Notes under the pieces: model-generated
What the model saw: only the letters and a program-made list of their open reading frames with translations
What the model was told of the DNA's origin: nothing
The model's database searches: none
DNA from: Streptomyces roseirectus
Lineage (GTDB): Bacteria > Actinomycetota > Actinomycetes > Streptomycetales > Streptomycetaceae
Direction: 5' to 3'
DNA: 64,000 bases
Assembly: GCF_014489635.1 (NCBI RefSeq)
Contig: NZ_CP060828.1
Span: 3,200,001 to 3,264,000, forward strand
Shown here: positions 7,097-35,580 of the stretch, in pieces
Layout: every line of letters starts with the position of its first letter
How positions within the stretch are numbered: the first letter of the stretch is position 1
Program-made: the position numbers and the translations under genes

Positions 7097-8152
7097 TCAG
7101 TTGCTCCGCCGAGTGACGAACTCCGCCAGCGCCAGCAGCCCCCCGCCCCTCTCCGGATCCGGCACGGCACGGGCCAGTTCGGCGACGGCGTCCCCCATCC
7201 GGTCGGCGGCCTCGGCCTGGGCCCAGTCCCGCCCCCCGGCCCGCTCCACGGCGAGGGCCGTCCGCTCCAACTCCCCCTCGACGTACGGCCCGGAGTACAG
7301 CGCCGCGAGTTCATCGGCCGCCGAACCGCCGGAGGTCAACGCGGCGACGACCGGCAACGACTTCTTGCGGGCGGCGAGATCCGCCCCCGCCGGCTTGCCG
7401 GTGTGGAGGGGATCTCCCCATATCCCGATGACGTCGTCGATGAGCTGGAACGCGAGCCCGGCCTGCCGCCCGAACAGATCGAGCGCGTCGACCTCGTCGG
7501 CGGACCCCCCGGCGTAGAGCCCCCCGATGGCGCAGGCGCACCCGAGCAGCGCCCCGGTCTTGGCCTCGGCCATCCGCAGCACCTCGGCGAGCCCGACCTC
7601 GCGGGGTTCCCGCCGCTCCAGCGCGGTGTCGATCTGCTGTCCCTCGCACAGCTCGACGACACAGGAGGCGAGCCGCCCGAGCGCGGGCACGGCGGCGGGG
7701 TGGGAGTCCCCGGCGAGCAGCCGGAACGCGAGCGCCTGGAGCGCGTCCCCCGCGAGGATCGCGTCGGGATCCCCGAACACGGCCCAGGCGGTGGCCCGGT
7801 GACGCCGGGTGGGGTCGCGGTCCATGACGTCGTCGTGCAGGAGCGTGAAGTTGTGGACGAGTTCGACGGCGGCGGCGGCCCGGACCGCGGCCGTACGCGC
7901 CCGCGCGCCCCCCAGCGCGTCCGCCGCGGTCAGCACGAGGGCGGGCCTGATCGCCTTGCCCGCGTGGGCGGTGGTGGCGAGCCCGTCCGCGTCCTGCCAC
8001 CCGAAGTGGTACCGCGCGACGCGCCGCATCTCGGGCGGGAGCGTGTCGACGGCGGACCGCAGTTCGGGGTCGACGTCGGCCCGCGCCCGTTCGAGGATCG
8101 CCGGCGCCTCCTGGCCGTTGTCGATGGCCGCCCCCCAGGCCCAGGTGGTCAT
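7097..8152 (-). CDS. Polyprenyl diphosphate synthase, probable encapsulin cargo
   Basis: 351-residue trans-isoprenyl diphosphate synthase that would condense IPP with allylic diphosphates to make C10-C20 chains. The first aspartate-rich motif is LLHDDVMD and the second is QLIDDVIGIWGD; both bind Mg-diphosphate. Also present are GKAIRPALVL (IPP-binding basic motif region) and AKTGALLGCACAIG. It lies 46 bases downstream of the shell gene on the same strand. Polyprenyl transferases are one of the cargo classes predicted for family 2B encapsulins, so encapsulation is likely. The leader before the synthase fold is short (about 25-30 residues), unlike the long disordered targeting domains known for encapsulated 2-methylisoborneol synthases, so how it would be loaded is not obvious. 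Product chain length is unknown. Confidence 0.9.
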   Translation of the reverse strand: MTTWAWGAAIDNGQEAPAILERARADVDPELRSAVDTLPPEMRRVARYHFGWQDADGLATTAHAGKAIRPALVLTAADALGGARARTAAVRAAAAVELVHNFTLLHDDVMDRDPTRRHRATAWAVFGDPDAILAGDALQALAFRLLAGDSHPAAVPALGRLASCVVELCEGQQIDTALERREPREVGLAEVLRMAEAKTGALLGCACAIGGLYAGGSADEVDALDLFGRQAGLAFQLIDDVIGIWGDPLHTGKPAGADLAARKKSLPVVAALTSGGSAADELAALYSGPYVEGELERTALAVERAGGRDWAQAEAADRMGDAVAELARAVPDPERGGGLLALAEFVTRRSN

Positions 8153-8198
8153 GTGCGCACCCGCCCCGGAGGGCGGGCGCGCACGGCACGGCGGACGG

Positions 8199-9602
8199 TC
8201 ACCAACGACCGACCTCCACGTTCTCCAGGACGCCGAGGGCGTCCGGGACGAGCACGGCGGCCGAGTAGTAGGCGGTGACGAGGTACTTGATGATGGCCTG
8301 CTCGTTGATGCCCATGAACCGCACGGACAGGCTGGGCTCGATCTCGTCGGGCAGCCCGGACTGGCGCAGCCCGATGACGCCCTGGTCCTTCTCGCCGAGA
8401 CGCATCGCGATGATGGAGCTGGTGCGCGCCTCGGTGACGGGGATCTTGTTGCACGGGTAGATCGGCACCCCGCGCCAGGTGGGGATGCGGTTGCCGTCGA
8501 TGTCGATGGTCTCGGGGACGAGCCCGCGCTTGTTCAGCTCGCGCCCGAACGCGGCGATGGCGCGCGGGTGGGCGAGGAACAGCTTGGTCCCGCGCCGGCG
8601 GCTCAGCAGCTCGTCCATGTCGTCCGGGGACGGCACGCCGTCGTGCGGCTGGATGCGCTGGTCGTACTCGCAGTTGTTGAGGAGGCCGAACTCGCGGTTG
8701 TTGACGAGTTCGTGCTCCTGGCGCTCCTTCAGCGCCTCGACCGTGAGCCGCAGCTGCTGCTCGGTCTGGTTCATGGGCTGGTTGTAGAGGTCGGCGACGC
8801 GCGAATGGATGCGCAGCACGGTCTGGGCGATGCTGAGTTCGTACTCGCGGGGCTTGGCGTCGTAGTCGACGAACGTGTGCGGGATGTCCGGCTCACCGGA
8901 GTGGCCGGCCGCGAGGTCGACGGCCTTCTCGCCGTACTTGTTGGTGTTCTGCGCGGGGATCGCGCGCAGTTCCTGGAGGTGCCCGCGCAGGCTGTCGGCG
9001 CGCTCGGTGACCTGCTCGAAGTCCTGCCGGGAGAGGGTGAGGACGGTGCAGGCGGTGGCCGCGCGGGCGGTGTACTCCCAGATCGCGTCGGCGTCGAGGA
9101 GGGCCTGGTCGCCGAAGTGGGCGCCGTCGGCGAGGACGCCGAGGACCTGGTCGTCGCCGTAGGGGCCGGTGCCGATCTTCTCGACGCGGCCGTGCGCCAG
9201 CATGAACACTTCGTCGTTCTGGCTGCCGAAGGAGGCGATGACCTCGCCGGCGCCGATCTCGCGCTGGCGGGCGCGCGAGGCGAGTTCGGTGAGGACGTCC
9301 TCGTCCTCGAAGCCGCGCAGCGCGGGCAGTTCGCCCAGTTCGACGGGGATGACCTCGACGCGGTCGCCGGTCTTGACGAACGTGATGCGGCCGTCACCGA
9401 CGGCGTAGGTGAGCCGCCGGTTCACCCGGTACGTGCCGCCCTGGACGTCGACCCACGGCAGCGTGCGCAGCAGCCAGCGCGAGCTGATCTCCTGCATCTG
9501 CGGCACGGACTTGGTGGTGGTGGCCAGGTTCCGCGCGGCGGCGGTGCCGAGGCTCTGCTGCGGCGTGCCGTCTTCGGTGCGGATCTCTTCGCCTACCGAC
9601 AT
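8199..9602 (-). CDS. Family 2B encapsulin nanocompartment shell protein
   Basis: 467 residues. The protein has an HK97-type major-capsid fold of the encapsulin family 2 kind, interrupted by a cyclic-nucleotide-binding (Crp-like) domain at about residues 85-205: [20 protein letters not shown], then HFGDQALL and [16 protein letters not shown]. Shell-type sequence precedes it (N-terminal arm, [20 protein letters not shown]) and follows it ([54 protein letters not shown]). The insertion defines the 2B subtype. Such proteins assemble into small icosahedral shells around enzymes. The adjacent downstream gene is a prenyl synthase. A GGGAGGG Shine-Dalgarno lies about 9 bases before the ATG. Only one shell gene is present here. 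Whether the Crp-like domain binds a ligand is unknown. Confidence 0.93.
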
Positions 9603-10709: not shown

Positions 10710-11048
10710 GTGGCGGACGAGATCGGCGTGGGCGAAGCCGTCCAGGCGCTGCGCGACGAGCTGCTGGCCGCGGCGGCCGCGGGCGCGGACAGCGGCGTGC
10801 GGTTCGAAGTGGGGCCCATCGAGCTGGAGTTCGCGTTCACGCTGACCAAGGAGGTCTCCGCGAAGGTGGGCGTGAGCCGGATCCTGAGCGCGGTGGTCTC
10901 GGCGGACGTGAACGGCAAGGCCGCCAAGGAGGACGTGCACCGCGTGAAGTTCGTCCTCACGCCCAGGGACGCCGCCGGGAACCCGCTGCTGATCAGCAAC
11001 GAACGGCCGCCCGAGGTGGGCCCGCTGGACTCGTCCTTCGGCCGCTGA
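10710..11048 (+). CDS. Trypco2 domain protein (trypsin-co-occurring domain 2)
   Basis: 112 residues from a GTG preceded by a G-rich Shine-Dalgarno. The whole protein matches the pattern of the trypsin-co-occurring domain 2: a short helix (VGEAVQALRDELLAAAAA), then GVRFEVGPIELEFAFTLT, KVGVSRILSAVVSADVNG and VHRVKFVLTPRD, ending in a disordered tail. The domain is known only from its conserved linkage to trypsin-like proteases in predicted NTP-dependent conflict systems, which is exactly the situation here: three bases separate it from a trypsin-STAND gene. Probably a protease substrate, regulator or adaptor; its biochemical role is not established. Confidence 0.85.
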   Translation: MADEIGVGEAVQALRDELLAAAAAGADSGVRFEVGPIELEFAFTLTKEVSAKVGVSRILSAVVSADVNGKAAKEDVHRVKFVLTPRDAAGNPLLISNERPPEVGPLDSSFGR

Positions 11049-11051
11049 GCC

Positions 11052-14000
11052 ATGCCGGACCGGCTGCGGGCCGCCCTGGTGGAGGCGGCGGGACAGGGCT
11101 CGGGCCTGGTCCTCGCACCCCGCCTGGTCCTCACGGCGGCCCACGTCCTGGGCGACCACGCGCACGCGACGGTCCACACGCCCCGCGGCGCGCCCGTCCG
11201 CTGCGAGGTCGTCTGGTCCCGCTTCGACCGGCACTACGACGCCGCGCTGCTGCTCGCGGAGGAGGACGTCCTCCCGGACGTCGAGCCGGTGCGGTGGGGG
11301 ACGCTGGTCACGTCGGAGCCGGCCGGCGTCACCCTCCTGGGCTTCGCGGCGGGGCCCGGCGACCACGTCGGGTCGCGTCCCTTCCGGGGCGAGCTGGACC
11401 CGCTGGACGCCGTGGAGCGCGACCGGTACGTCCTGAGCCTCGCCGGTACCCCGCCGGAGGGCGCCTCCCCCTGGGCGGGTCTGTCCGGCGGCGCCGTCTG
11501 GTGCCGGGACCTCCTGGTCGGCGTGGCCGTCGCGGACCTCCCGGGCTGGCGGCACAGCCGCCTGGAGGCGGTCCCGGCGTACGTCCTGCTGGCCGACCCC
11601 GGCTTCCGGGACCTCCTGCGCCGGCACACCGGGCAGGACGCCCAGCTGGAACCCGCCGAGTTCGCGGACCGGGCCCAGCCGGCGACGCCCCTGGTCCCGG
11701 CCTCCGTCGCCCTGCTGCTGCACCCGCGCGCGGAGACCGTCCGCTTCACGGGCCGCACCGAGCTGCTGGACGCGCTGACGTCCTGGTGCGCGGACGGCGA
11801 CGGGGTCCGCCTGGCCCTGCTGACGGGCGCGGGCGGCGCCGGGAAGTCGCGGGTGGCGCGCGAGCTGGGCCACCGTCTCGCGGCCCGCCGGCACGCCGTC
11901 GTCCACCTGGCGCGCGGGGCCGTCCCGGACGGTCTGTTCGCCGCGACGACCGCGCCCGTGCTCGTGGTCGTCGACTACGCGGAGAGCCGGGTGGAGCAGA
12001 CCGGCGCGCTCCTGGACGTCCTCGCGCGCCGCAGGCCCGGCGTGGCGCTGCGGGTGCTGCTCATCGCCCGCGCGCGGGGCCGCTGGTGGGACGAGCTGCG
12101 CGCGGCGGGACCGGAGGCCGCCGACCTCGCCGAGAACGCGCGCCACTGGTCGATCACCGGCACGGAATCCCTCGGCGTGGACGCGCGCGACGCGTTCCGT
12201 ACGGCGGTGGAGGACCTGGCGCGCGGTGTGGCCGCCCTGGGGCTGCCGGTGCCGGCCAGGGCCGGGGCGGAGCCCGCCAGGCCGCCCAGGACCGTCCTGG
12301 AGATCCACATGGCCGCCCTGGCGAGCCTCCTGGCCCCCTCGGCGGGCACGGCCGCCCAGGACACGCTGCTGCGCCACGAGGCGGCGTACTGGCGGAGCGC
12401 GTCCCAGGAGGCGCCGCTGCACCTCCTGGGCGAGGCGGCCCTGCGCAACGCGGTCGTGACGGCCACCCTCGTCGGCCCGGTCCCCCGCGCCCGCGCGCAC
12501 GCGCTCCTCGCGCGCGTGCCCCGCGTCGGGGACCAGCCGGAGGCCGTGCGCCTGGCGGTCGCCGACTGGCTGCGCGACCTGTACCCGAGGCCTGAGGGCG
12601 GCGACGCCCACTGGGGCAGCCTGGAGCCCGACCCGCTGGGCGAGTACCTGGTGGGCACGCGCGTGGCCGACGAGCCGGAGATCTTCCTGCGGCTCGTCGA
12701 CGCCCTGGACAACGAGGAGATGGTCAACGCCCTGCTGGTCCTCAGCCGCGCCGCCACGCGCGCGCAGGGCCTGCCGGACGTCCTGCGCGCCGCCGTCCGG
12801 ACCGCTCCGGGCCTGCTGGCGCCCCGGCTGCTCGGTGCCGTGCGCCGCAGCGCCGAACCGGGGCTCCTGGTCGACGCGTTGGAGGTGATCCTGGAGGAAG
12901 GGCTGCTGCCGGACCGGCGGTTGAGGGAGCTGGCCGGCCGGATGCCGCTGCTGAGCCAGGCGCTGGTGTCCTGGAGCGTGCGGCTCCAGCAGATGCTGGT
13001 GGACCAGAGGGAGGAAGGCTCGCCCCAGTCGCGCGCCGGCTCGCTGCACAACCTCGCCGGGCGCCTGGTGGCCGCCGGGCGCCACGAGGAGGCGCTGGCC
13101 ACCACGGCGTCGGCGCTGGCCCTCCTGGACGGCGTCCCGGACGCGCCCGCGTGGCTGCGGGGGCTGCTGCTGGGCCAGCGGTCCCGGCTGCTCAACTCGC
13201 TCGGCCGCCCCCAGGAGGCCGTCACCGAGGGCGAGCGGGCGCTGCGGGAGCTGTCCGGGTGGCCCCGGGAGGAGGACCCCGATACCGGGACGGAGGCCGT
13301 CGCCGCGACGCTCAACAACCTCTCCTACGGCCTCGCCGGCTGCGGCCGGCTCGACGAGGCGCTGGCGCGGGCGCGCGAGTCCGTCGCCCTGCGCCGGGAG
13401 CTGTCCGGCCGCCACCCGGAGCTGCTGCCGAGCCTCGCCCGCTCGCTCAGCACGCTGTCGCGCCACCAGCACCGCGCGGGCGACCTCCGCGCGGCCCTGG
13501 GGACGGCCGAGGAGTCGCTGTCGGTGCGCCGGACGGCCGCCGACCAGGAGCCGGACGCCTACCTCGTGGAGCTGGCCTCCACGCTGGACCACCTGGTGCA
13601 GATCCTGGCCGGCCTGGACGACGTGCCCGCCCTGCTGGAGGCCGCGCGGGAGGCCCGGTCCGTCCGGCGCACGCTCGCGCGCGTACGCCCGGAGGCGCAT
13701 CTGGCGGACCACGTGGAGATCCTGCTCGTCGTGGCCGAACTCACCGAGGGCGCCGAGAGTCTGGAGGCCGCCGACGAGGCCGTCACGGCGGCCCGCGCGC
13801 TCGTCCGCGACCAGGGCCGCGCGCACCTGGGTCTGCTCGGCGCGGCCTTCCGCGCGCAGGCGCGGGCGCTGGTGCCCCTCGGCAGCCCGCCGGTCGCGTT
13901 CCGCGTCTACACCAAGGCCGCGCAGGTGCTGCGCAGGGTGTTCCGCGAGACCGGCGAGGGCGCGGACGACCTGCTGAAGGCCCTGAACGCCCAGGCCCGC

Positions 14001-14204
14001 TTCTACCTGACGTTCACGCGGAGCGTGGCGGCGGCCGAACACCTCTCCGCCGAAGCCCTCGCCGTCCTGGCCGCGCTCCCCGAGGACGCCTTCCCCGAGG
14101 AGCGCGCCGAGGCCCTGGACACCCACGCGCGCGTGCAAGAGGCGCTGGAGGGCATCACTCCGCCTCCCGGTACGCCGCCGCCTCCTCCAGGTCGAGCCTC
14201 CTGA
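11052..14204 (+). CDS. Trypsin-like protease - STAND NTPase - TPR protein
   Basis: 1050 residues in three parts. Residues 1-200 are a trypsin-like serine protease: H31 in LTAAHVLG, D63 in HYDAALLL, S145 in GLSGGAVW. Residues 230-560 are a P-loop STAND-type NTPase: Walker A GAGGAGKSR near 259, Walker B VLVVVDYAE near 303. From about 640 to 1030 come repeated helical hairpins of TPR type (EEALATTASALALLDG, DEALARARESVALRRELSG, DLRAALGTAEESLSVR). No signal peptide, so cytoplasmic. The pairing with the upstream Trypco2 gene fits a described class of predicted conflict systems in multicellular bacteria, where the repeats sense a trigger, the NTPase switches and the protease acts. The final 50 bases overlap the convergent antiporter gene. 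Confidence 0.88.
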   Translation: MPDRLRAALVEAAGQGSGLVLAPRLVLTAAHVLGDHAHATVHTPRGAPVRCEVVWSRFDRHYDAALLLAEEDVLPDVEPVRWGTLVTSEPAGVTLLGFAAGPGDHVGSRPFRGELDPLDAVERDRYVLSLAGTPPEGASPWAGLSGGAVWCRDLLVGVAVADLPGWRHSRLEAVPAYVLLADPGFRDLLRRHTGQDAQLEPAEFADRAQPATPLVPASVALLLHPRAETVRFTGRTELLDALTSWCADGDGVRLALLTGAGGAGKSRVARELGHRLAARRHAVVHLARGAVPDGLFAATTAPVLVVVDYAESRVEQTGALLDVLARRRPGVALRVLLIARARGRWWDELRAAGPEAADLAENARHWSITGTESLGVDARDAFRTAVEDLARGVAALGLPVPARAGAEPARPPRTVLEIHMAALASLLAPSAGTAAQDTLLRHEAAYWRSASQEAPLHLLGEAALRNAVVTATLVGPVPRARAHALLARVPRVGDQPEAVRLAVADWLRDLYPRPEGGDAHWGSLEPDPLGEYLVGTRVADEPEIFLRLVDALDNEEMVNALLVLSRAATRAQGLPDVLRAAVRTAPGLLAPRLLGAVRRSAEPGLLVDALEVILEEGLLPDRRLRELAGRMPLLSQALVSWSVRLQQMLVDQREEGSPQSRAGSLHNLAGRLVAAGRHEEALATTASALALLDGVPDAPAWLRGLLLGQRSRLLNSLGRPQEAVTEGERALRELSGWPREEDPDTGTEAVAATLNNLSYGLAGCGRLDEALARARESVALRRELSGRHPELLPSLARSLSTLSRHQHRAGDLRAALGTAEESLSVRRTAADQEPDAYLVELASTLDHLVQILAGLDDVPALLEAAREARSVRRTLARVRPEAHLADHVEILLVVAELTEGAESLEAADEAVTAARALVRDQGRAHLGLLGAAFRAQARALVPLGSPPVAFRVYTKAAQVLRRVFRETGEGADDLLKALNAQARFYLTFTRSVAAAEHLSAEALAVLAALPEDAFPEERAEALDTHARVQEALEGITPPPGTPPPPPGRAS

Positions 14205-33144: not shown

Positions 33145-34497
33145 CTACCGGGACACCGGGCGCAGTCTCAGGTTCTTGGGGCGGAGGGTGATGCCGATGC
33201 GGTGGCGGGGGTCGGAGTCCCGGGTCTCCTCGAAGGTGAACGCCGAGGCCATCGTGGCGGTGAGGAGGGTCATCTCGGCCATGGAGAAGTGGTCGCTCGG
33301 GCACTTGCGGTTGCCGACGCTGAAGGGGCTCATCGCGTATTTGGGGACCTCCTCGGAGGCGCCGGGGAGCCAGCGGTCGGGGTCGAACACCTCGGCCCTG
33401 CGGTAGGAGCGGGGATCCCGCTGGAGCGCGTAGGGGCTGTAGACGATGTCGGCGCCGGCGGGAATGCGGTATCCGCCGAGGACCGTGTCGGTGACCGCGC
33501 GCCGGGTCAATATCCATACGGCCGGATAGAGCCGCAATGTCTCGACGACCACATTCCCGGTGTACGCCAGACTGCGGACGTCGTCGAATCCCACGGGCCG
33601 GTCGCCCACCACGTTTTTCACCTCCGCCCGGATCTTGTCGGCGTGTTCGGGGTACTCGGTGAGCACCAGCAGCAGCGACATGATCATGGACCCCACGGTT
33701 TCGCTGCCCGGCGTGAGTATCGCGATGACCTGGTCGTGGATCTCCTGCTCTCCGATGGGTTCGCCATTCTCGTCCGTCGCCTCCAGCAAAGCCGTCAGCA
33801 AATCGTCGGGCTTTTGCCCGGACGCGCGCCGGTCGGCGACGATCTCGTCGACGAGGAGGTGCAAATCGGCCAGCGCGCGGTTGAATTCGCGGTTGGCCGG
33901 AAGCGGCACGCGATAAAGCGGTCCGAGGGGTACGACCATGCGTTGGTACATACCGCTGAACAGCGCCGCGAGGTCGGCGCAGATCCGTTCGGCCCGCTCG
34001 TCCATGTAGCTGCCGCGCATGAGGCAGCGCGCGGCGATCCGGGTGGCGACGCGGAACGACTCGGTGGTGACGTCGAGGACGTCCAGGCCGCGCCACCGCT
34101 CGACCAGGGCCCGCGCCTCCTCCTCCATGACGGGCCCGTAGCCGGGTATCGCGTCGAGCCTGAACGCGGGCTGTATGGTGCGCCGTTGGCGCCGGTGCAG
34201 GGGCCCGTTGGCGGTGGCGACGCCCTCCTTGCCGAGCAGGCTCTCCAGGGACTCCCAGAGGGGCCCGGCGATGATGTAGTCGGGGCTGAGGGCGACCTCG
34301 CCGACGAGTTCGGGCGCGGTGACGGCGTACACCGTCTTGGGCCCGAGCCCGAGGCGGACGACGTCCCCGTGGTCGCGCAGCCCGGTGAGGAAGTCCAGCG
34401 GGGTGCGGGCCAGTTTCCAGCCGTGGCCGAGCAGCGGGAGTCCGCCGCCGGCGAGGGGCGGCTCGGCCGTGGCCGTCCGTACCGATTCGAGGGTCAT
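33145..34497 (-). CDS. Cytochrome P450, CYP170A type (albaflavenone synthase)
   Basis: 450 residues closely resembling S. coelicolor CYP170A1, which oxidises epi-isozizaene in two steps via albaflavenols to the antibiotic sesquiterpenoid albaflavenone. The haem-binding loop [13 protein letters not shown] contains the axial Cys399. The I-helix motif is [14 protein letters not shown] (oxygen-activating Thr replaced by the GSET pattern typical of CYP170), the ExxR pair is VVETLRLYP, and the PERF-like region is FDPDRWLPG. The gene starts directly after the synthase stop (TAGATG), so the pair is cotranscribed and coupled. CYP170A1 is also reported to have a second, terpene-synthase activity; whether that site is kept here needs alignment. 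Confidence 0.92.
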
Positions 34498-35580
34498 CTA
34501 CATTTCTCCCGACAGCGCGTTGTCGACATAGGGGGGCGTGGACCGGTCGTCCCAGCTGTCGACCATGTACCGGCCGGACTCGTGGTGGAACCAGTAGACG
34601 GAACTGAACCAGTTCCGCATATTGCCGAGGCAGCCGAGGACGGCGTCGCGGATTTCCTTGTCGCCGAGGCCGTCCGCGAAAAGGCGTGTCTCCTTCTCGG
34701 CGTCGAGGAAATCGGCGATGCTGCCCAGGACGCGCCGCCTCAGTTCCTCGACGGATTCCTCCAGAGTCAGCCCTTCATGGACGATGAGGCTGATTCCGAG
34801 ATTGTGGACCTCGTCGCCCGCGATTTCCTTGGGCAGGGAACAGAGGTCGTTGTACCAGGCGGCGAATTCCTGGCTGAGCAGGGCGGCCCGCCGGAATGCG
34901 CGGTGTTTCCGCACGGCGTCCGGGAGTTCACGTCCCGCGGCCGCCTCCAGGAGGTCCGTCCATATCCAGTGCGCGAAGGTGAGCCGCCTCAGGGCGAGGT
35001 ATTCGCCGACCGGCGGGACCCGGGCCTCGACGCGGTTGCGGAACTCGCGGTCGTAGGCGTCGATCACCTCGTGGAAGTGCCGGGCGAAGCGGGCGTTCCA
35101 GGTGGCGGGCAGGAAGCCGTAGAGCCGCAGCACGCTGTCGGCGAGGCCCGCGACCAGCGGGTCCTGGTGGTGCAGATGGGCCGCGGGGGCGTCGAGGGCC
35201 TGGTGGAGCAGGGCTTTGAGGCGCCGCCAGGCTCCGGTGCGGCCGTGCACGATGTGGCGGTCGTGGCGGTCGTCCCAGACGAAGAACCAGGCGCTGTAGT
35301 CGGCGATGGCCTGGAGCACCGCGTCGGGTGCGCCGAGGTAGTAGCCGGCCATCAGGTCCGTGTAGCACAAGCCATCGGCATATTCCGCGACCTTGTCGGG
35401 GGGCATCAGCCGCTTTTCCAGCAGCCAGTGCCGCGTGTTCTGCTGCAACCGTGGCCAATACGGGTGCAGTCGCCGGGGAAACTCCGCCTCGATGACCGGC
35501 AGGGAGAGCGACGGCGGAACCGCGCCGCGTGCGCCGCCGGTCCTGCTGCTGTGTTTGGTGCTCGGTGGGAAAGCTGGCAC
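34498..35580 (-). CDS. Epi-isozizaene synthase (class I sesquiterpene cyclase)
   Basis: 360 residues, very similar along its length to S. coelicolor epi-isozizaene synthase (361 aa). Cyclises farnesyl diphosphate to epi-isozizaene, precursor of albaflavenone. Metal-binding motifs: D103DRHD107 in WFFVWDDRHDRH, and NDLCSLPKE of the NSE triad in AAWYNDLCSLPKEIAGDEVH. The C-terminal SSVYWFHHESGRYMVDSWDD closes the active site. The GTG at 35580 is chosen because GAGGGG lies six bases upstream and the resulting MPAF start and length match the known enzyme; the frame runs on to 35733 but without protein character. Forms an operon with the CYP170A gene. Confidence 0.93.
   Translation of the reverse strand: MPAFPPSTKHSSRTGGARGAVPPSLSLPVIEAEFPRRLHPYWPRLQQNTRHWLLEKRLMPPDKVAEYADGLCYTDLMAGYYLGAPDAVLQAIADYSAWFFVWDDRHDRHIVHGRTGAWRRLKALLHQALDAPAAHLHHQDPLVAGLADSVLRLYGFLPATWNARFARHFHEVIDAYDREFRNRVEARVPPVGEYLALRRLTFAHWIWTDLLEAAAGRELPDAVRKHRAFRRAALLSQEFAAWYNDLCSLPKEIAGDEVHNLGISLIVHEGLTLEESVEELRRRVLGSIADFLDAEKETRLFADGLGDKEIRDAVLGCLGNMRNWFSSVYWFHHESGRYMVDSWDDRSTPPYVDNALSGEM

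Follow-up and report, generated by a model that had tools for sequence, protein, structure and literature searches.

The operon described here bears directly on how a Family 2B encapsulin shell recognizes its cargo, as the candidate cargo, a polyprenyl synthase, stands behind an intact shell gene with a leader of only about a dozen residues. The class of the operon was predicted in the survey of Andreas and Giessen in 2021, which counted 900 operons, 888 of them in Actinobacteria (PMC8346489). In its accessible part the survey gives these cargo proteins a disordered N-terminal domain of 50-100 residues, casts suspicion on disordered leaders and describes no targeting motif (PMC8346489). The operon class is already known, and the novelty here lies in how the short leader came about. 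The locus lies in a stretch of 64,000 nucleotides of Streptomyces roseirectus DNA, analysed as a whole and called the window below.

Identity of the shell and the synthase

The shell gene occupies positions 8199-9602 of the minus strand and encodes a protein of 467 amino acids (P0002). This protein scores 770.2 bits against the curated NCBI model NF041163 (encap_f2b, cut-off 400) and 359 bits against the Family 2A model, under the cut-off of 380 that applies there. PF19307 (SrpI-like) covers its residues 216-466 (E = 2e-137; 456.5 bits, cut-off 22.8), and PF00027 (cNMP_binding) is found inside the shell protein at residues 114-201 (9000-9263, minus strand; E = 3e-16, 59.8 bits), which bears out the description of a shell interrupted by a Crp-like domain given in an earlier, sequence-only reading. 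The synthase gene follows on the same strand at 7097-8152 and encodes 351 amino acids (P0001), its ATG lying 46 bases after the shell stop. It matches PF00348 (E = 5e-55) and passes, by a narrow margin, the curated model of the polyprenyl transferase cargo of Family 2 encapsulins (NF041169, 474.8 bits, cut-off 450). Both gene identities are established and far beyond chance. With each protein over its curated cut-off, the earlier claims of a Family 2B operon and of a synthase belonging to a predicted 2B cargo class are supported, and coordinates and translation agree with the 46-base gap and the two intact Asp-rich motifs reported with them. The first of these motifs, DDVMD, comprises residues 107-111 (7820-7834, minus strand), with D107, D108 and D111 invariant in 32 sequences; the second, DDVIGIWGD, comprises residues 239-247 (7412-7438, minus strand), with D239 and D240 invariant in the same number. 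No terpene cyclase is adjacent to the synthase, as had also been remarked, and the sole cyclase gene found in the window, an epi-isozizaene-synthase-like gene at 34498-35448, is about 25 kb away.

The product of the synthase is most likely geranylgeranyl diphosphate (C20, GGPP), as predicted from the nearest folds and from one chain-length position. The predicted structure (pLDDT 89) is nearest to 3nf2 and to archaeal GGPP synthases. Phe102 (7847-7849, minus strand), five residues ahead of the first Asp-rich motif and invariant in 32 sequences, stands at what we take to be the chain-length position of the archaeal enzymes. Among chain-length models the IdsB GGPP model (NF045549) gives the top score, 347.1 bits against 148 for the FPP model; this is under its cut-off of 475, and the synthase is for that reason left outside the IdsB type.

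Distribution of the gene pair

Of 392 Streptomyces genomes, 296 contain a protein that passes NF041169; in a sample of 293 genomes from the order, again mostly Streptomyces, 217 do. With the shell as query, the synthase lies directly 3' of it in 78 of the best 80 loci (in L004 and L054 it runs off the contig, and in L012 and L033 it matches in two frames); with the synthase profile as query, a shell is located upstream in 29 of the best 30. Conservation of the pair in other genomes, on which the sequence-only reading had made its proposal depend, is thus found. The surroundings are equally constant: among 66 full-length loci, a divergent gene for a PLP-dependent enzyme and a gene for a sodium/proton exchanger are present in all 66 and the synthase in 65. 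With gene order and neighbours thus shared, the locus is a standing part of the Streptomyces chromosome. The neighbouring genes resemble what we take to be the S. coelicolor region of EshB (SCO5249) and SCO5250, and the window locus is probably, judging by gene order, a locus of the eshB type. In published work eshB is included in the table of a differentiation transcriptome (PMC3610822) and named among possible AtrA targets (PMC13170358), and SCO5250 appears in a study of carbon sources (PMC7494193). Class membership and pairing together suggest that the window synthase would be packaged.

Both genes were recovered at an E-value of 1e-40 from 107 distinct loci. The larger group outside the window's own clade, clade A, contains 89 loci, and clade B contains 15. 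The identity comparison and both trees are based on 104 loci, L004, L012 and L033 having been left out as truncated or as matching in two frames.

The leader and the start region of the synthase

The leader of the window synthase comprises 13 residues by the count used across loci. The first helix begins at residue 15, the 14 residues ahead of it are encoded at 8111-8152 of the minus strand, and residues 1-12 have pLDDT values below 50. The open frame contains no in-frame ATG, GTG or TTG upstream of the synthase ATG, so that the leader cannot be longer, barring a rarer start codon. A disordered N-terminal domain of 50-100 residues is absent, the disorder being that of residues 1-12; in an orthologue with a longer leader (P0012), pLDDT is below 50 over residues 1-42. 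The published figure may in part count residues ahead of the Pfam domain, and 61 residues precede PF00348 in the window synthase.

Leader lengths elsewhere, with start codons picked by predicted ribosome-site strength, have a median of 38 residues and a range of 12-192 in clade A, where 13 of 89 loci have leaders of 20 residues or fewer, eight of these being 19-20 residues long (the starts of L097, L098 and L124, at 12 residues, are probably misplaced). In clade B the leader resembles MTSTDAATEG and is 10-13 residues long in 13 of 15 loci (L117 and L120, at 58, probably have misplaced starts). Since the leaders of clade B are equally short, short leaders are nothing exceptional in this class; and since, in addition, the curated model requires none, the long disordered domain is taken here as typical rather than defining. 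The short leader to which the sequence-only reading drew attention is therefore real, with about 12 disordered residues, but less unusual than supposed.

Leader length alone sets the window little apart, and what distinguishes it is the missing start region together with the missing motifs. For 52 of the 89 clade A loci the best-scoring start, preceded by a strong ribosome site, is located at +105 to +125 after the shell stop; the N-terminus that begins there is like MAEFMTET, and a variable stretch separates it from the conserved DGHEA and the first helix. In the window and in L004 and L005 (S. niveiscabiei and S. acidiscabies), the start is found at +46. Two leader motifs were recognized. 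Of the 89 clade A loci, 51 have the N-terminal motif [AGTSV]Ex[MLTVGR]T and 19 have ERRxxI[GAT], with means of 0.2 and 0.4 in shuffles that, here as for the hairpin below, preserve composition only; among the 112 proteins listed, the counts are 73 and 35. Both were looked for in the window clade and neither was seen. The comparison of N-termini among paired synthases that had been proposed earlier thus yields motifs for clade A and none for the window clade, and its frequency in clade A leads us to reject ERRxxI[GAT] as a universal tag.

A hairpin lies between the two genes. Its core, CCCGCCC-N4-GGGCGGG (8160-8177, minus strand), ends seven bases before the synthase ATG and is the sole match in the window, where 0.02 would be expected; the fold has a z-score of -2.34. 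In the RNA one arm covers the likely ribosome site of the synthase. Among 92 clade A loci (the window is one of them), 45 have a stem of 7 bp or more no farther than 62 bases from the shell stop, where shuffles give 3.5; for clade B the figures are 7 of 15 loci and 1.4. A few loci show paired changes on both sides of the stem. The hairpin may limit synthase expression relative to that of the shell, or may couple the translation of the synthase to that of the shell.

Two observations concern terpene cyclases. An arginine-pair motif, picked post hoc and to be taken as a lead only, is common to synthase leaders (20 of 89) and to the N-termini of terpene cyclases (91 of 121). A parallel leader loss in the 2-methylisoborneol synthase of this genome was considered and rejected, as the 120 relatives listed are all 340-389 residues long.

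Phylogeny, divergence and selection

The synthase tree groups the window with L005 and P0003-P0007 (support 100/97) and nests this clade within clade A, as sister (96/89) to L029 of S. tropicalis, which has a leader of 52 residues. Clade B is supported at 100/100. The window and L005 have the same neighbours in the shell tree. On these sequence trees the short leader arose within a lineage nested among synthases with longer leaders, and the simplest reading would be that the window lineage lost the stretch from the hairpin to the catalytic fold.

The ratio of nonsynonymous to synonymous change (dN/dS) between the synthases of the window and L005, the one window pair available, is 0.159, near the bottom of the control range (0.209 +/- 0.042, 63 pairs), which disfavours a relaxation of selection on the enzyme after the leader was lost. 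The synthase has nevertheless diverged faster than expected: identity in the window clade is 75.9% against 83.0% for others at 87.5-90% shell identity, and dS between the window and L005 is 0.57 against 0.29. At positions conserved in at least 97% of the sequences elsewhere, the window synthase has 2 changes (the median of the loci is 1) and that of L005 has 7, the joint highest count. A simple loss of the leader does not explain this high divergence, silent sites included. Taken together, the nested position of the short-leader clade, the agreement of the two trees, the low dN/dS and the existence of a second short-leader lineage indicate that a long leader is dispensable for keeping the pairing.

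The N-arm, inner loop and Crp-like domain of the shell

The N-arm of the shell (residues 17-36; 9495-9554, minus strand) hardly varies among the 88-92 shells (of 104) whose sequence extends this far, except at residue 33, which is Ala or Val. Mimicry of this arm by cargo motifs, suspected by eye from a published cyclase motif, was rejected, as 0 of the 120 cyclases listed carry that motif. A second element, the loop of residues 364-375 (8478-8513, minus strand), corresponds in an alignment by eye to the luminal 'diagnostic motif 2' of the S. lydicus shells, for which the accessible text describes a luminal position and a proposed contact with cargo (PMC12407261). Residue 369 in this loop is acidic in all three window-clade shells (Asp in L001 and L004, Glu in L005), whereas all 87 clade A shells have Ala, Gly or Ser there and all 15 of clade B have Gly or Ala. 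An unchanged inner loop is thereby ruled out for the window clade, although the remainder of its loop (GNRIPT) is of the clade A kind. Residue 369 is one of five positions (111, 134, 219, 369 and 405) at which window-clade shells carry residues found in at most 2% of clade A; a search for shell residues uncommon in clade A that the window clade has in common with clade B gave none. Novel sites by the 2% limit average 0.3 in the 63 control pairs, with a maximum of 4, and none of those falls in the inner loop. The count of novel sites as such means little, because it reaches from 0 to 9 in nine pairs with long stems. The change at residue 369, being one site on one branch, is suggestive and no more, and it may be linked to the loss of the leader.

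In the aligned shells, Trp175-Glu176 of the Crp-like domain (9075-9080, minus strand) occupies the site that we take to be that of the phosphate-binding Arg-Ser of Crp. Trp stands at the Arg position in 104 of 104 shells and Glu at the Ser position in 101 of 104, and the Trp is present also in the three solved Family 2B shells found and in the second shell of this genome. Such domains did not bind cyclic nucleotides according to a 2025 paper that cites a preprint on this point (PMC12407261). A cyclic nucleotide is an unlikely ligand of the window domain, judged from its sequence, and a different conserved pocket or a structural role fits better. The suggestion that this domain gates the shell by a small ligand is accordingly weakened as far as cyclic nucleotides are concerned, though another small ligand may bind, and the conserved pocket of a non-Crp kind (Trp-Glu) narrows the search for it.

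Proposed reading: a packaged synthase that lost its leader, and the alternatives

The reading we prefer, and hold to be reasonably probable, is that of an ordinary, vertically inherited Streptomyces Family 2B operon with a synthase as cargo, in a lineage that has lost the leader region. The shell would enclose a synthase making C20 geranylgeranyl diphosphate, and substrate and product would cross the pores of the shell, with Crp-like domains over the two-fold pores, where these domains have been placed in the S. lydicus shell work (PMC12407261). Ribosome site, start codon and disordered leader would have disappeared together with the sequence that separated the hairpin from the catalytic fold. 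The enzyme would have stayed under purifying selection, and the shell would have gained an acidic residue in the candidate cargo loop. Loading, if it still occurs, would rest on the folded enzyme, on the short N-cap (GxEA before the first helix) or on both. Either loading uses the folded enzyme and the short N-cap, or packaging was lost. A more general proposal, which we put forward tentatively and with less than even confidence, is that the prenyl synthases of Family 2B load without a disordered leader altogether: the folded dimer with its GxEA N-cap would dock on the inner loop, and the longer leaders seen in most of clade A would be accessory, discarded here with a matching change at residue 369 and absent in clade B too. 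The window lineage and clade B offer natural short-leader versions beside intact shells; the former in particular is a natural test of whether the leader is needed for packing, with shell residue 369 as the place to look.

That the synthase of the window lineage is no longer cargo is the strongest alternative, and an unlikely one. The loading signal would have been lost and the enzyme would be cytosolic, one among several prenyl synthases, with the shell empty or repurposed. The loss of the leader and of both motifs and the faster divergence of the synthase would fit this, as would a shell dN/dS that is raised in the window pair (0.188, controls 0.124 +/- 0.026). Shells can also persist without an intact synthase: in the two unpaired loci among the best 80, L062 and L066, the shell is intact, and the synthase lacks residues from about 70 to 324 in the former and is reduced to a C-terminal remnant in the latter. 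The genome moreover carries, besides the window synthase, six other matches to PF00348, two of them near genes of the squalene/phytoene synthase family (PF00494, five matches in the genome). Against these points, the pair is still adjacent and co-inherited in the window lineage, the clade B synthases are paired despite leaders equally short, and ERRxxI can be no obligatory tag, since 70 of the 89 loci in clade A lack it.

It is improbable that the synthase was never encapsulated in any of these species and that the pairing reflects developmental co-regulation, with the shell as a stress or signalling particle and the synthase supplying membranes or terpenoids. A literature search that stopped short of preprints and of most subscription papers found no loading experiment, and no co-purification or assembly data, for polyprenyl synthases of this class. 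The gene eshB (SCO5249) reportedly rises during development in S. coelicolor (PMC3878966), and the hairpin between the genes would permit separate control. Other Family 2 cargo types adjoin their shells in the same manner, however, and the survey reports that one of them, a cysteine desulfurase, is encapsulated in a Family 2A shell (PMC8346489); the adjacency is also very tight (78 of 80, 29 of 30). Replacement of the synthase by a divergent leaderless homologue, through gene conversion or transfer instead of deletion, would account for a dS between the window and L005 of 0.57 in the synthase against 0.16 in the shell and for the long stem of the window clade in the synthase tree, yet it is quite improbable, as both gene trees give this clade the same neighbours, which disfavours a foreign copy, and the spacing between shell stop and hairpin is about that found in many relatives.

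Comparison with known systems

The window operon is closest to the 2B polyprenyl transferase operons of the 2021 survey, with which it shares the internal Crp-like domain, the adjacent synthase and the actinobacterial host. It differs from them in two respects: the survey cargo has 50-100 disordered residues and the window synthase about 12, and where the survey has no conserved motif, partial motifs are found here in clade A and are lacking in the window synthase.

The same genome contains a second system of the EshA/2-methylisoborneol synthase type at about G000:C1:687972-690226. It likewise has a 2B shell (719 bits) with a terpenoid enzyme directly downstream, and the two shells are 58% identical; unlike the window operon, it has a terpene cyclase as cargo (NF041167, 413 bits, cut-off 400). 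The nearest solved fold to the window synthase is 3nf2, a polyprenyl synthase of S. coelicolor (45% identity, TM 0.89). Its closest relative in this genome, identified by eye from the N-terminal letters, lies near PF00494 genes, unlike the window synthase, and neither of the two shell genes of the genome is located there.

For the shell, the closest solved relatives are 9bhu, 9bix and 9bje, the last two of which we take to be the two-component shell of S. lydicus. That shell (PMC12407261) belongs to the same family as the window shell and shares with it the Crp-like insert and the conserved Trp, whereas it is built from two shell proteins and is of the xylulose kinase type, the window operon having a single shell gene beside its polyprenyl synthase.

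Divergence of the shell and synthase genes

Silent sites of the window's polyprenyl synthase gene (window 7097-8152, reverse strand) and of its S. acidiscabies counterpart have diverged more than three times as far as those of the shell genes (dS 0.57 vs 0.16), a gap that differs from the control pairs, the 63 comparison pairs of loci, in which mean dS is 0.29 for the synthase and 0.23 for the shell. At shell residue 111 (window 9270-9272, reverse strand), Cys is found in 87/87 shells of clade A, the larger group of related loci, and in 15/15 of clade B, whose synthases are mostly short-leader; it is replaced by Ala in the window shell and by Ser in that of S. acidiscabies.

Among the related loci, the shell is still intact in L062, where the synthase is broken (11637-11889), and in L066, where only a remnant of the synthase is left (after 3357).

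Organization of the neighboring regions

Between the PLP-enzyme and exchanger genes (window 10710-14204, forward strand) lie a Trypco2-domain gene and then a trypsin-like protease gene, the protease also having NTPase-like and TPR stretches. This arrangement occurs in one of the 66 full-length related loci. Perfect palindromic stems of 16-18 bp between shell and synthase are present in four clade B loci (L100, L115, L121, and L125), directly 3' of the shell stop.

Terpene cyclases of the genome

The second Family 2B system (L002, G000:C1:687972-690226) consists of shell P0124 followed by P0123, a 2-methylisoborneol-synthase-like cyclase whose start overlaps the shell stop by ATGA. The N-terminus of P0123 carries RRTGAVPG, and the stretch R..G[AP][IV]P[GE] is found in 111 of 121 2-methylisoborneol-synthase-like cyclases, P0123 included. 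A terpene cyclase with an adjoining cytochrome P450 is encoded within the window (33145-35448, reverse strand); it is epi-isozizaene-synthase-like, with a model score of 593 bits against a cut-off of 675, and the N-terminus of its listed ORF may be incomplete. In albaflavenone loci, an epi-isozizaene-synthase-type cyclase adjoins a cytochrome P450, and the cyclase-P450 neighborhood of the window has the same arrangement.
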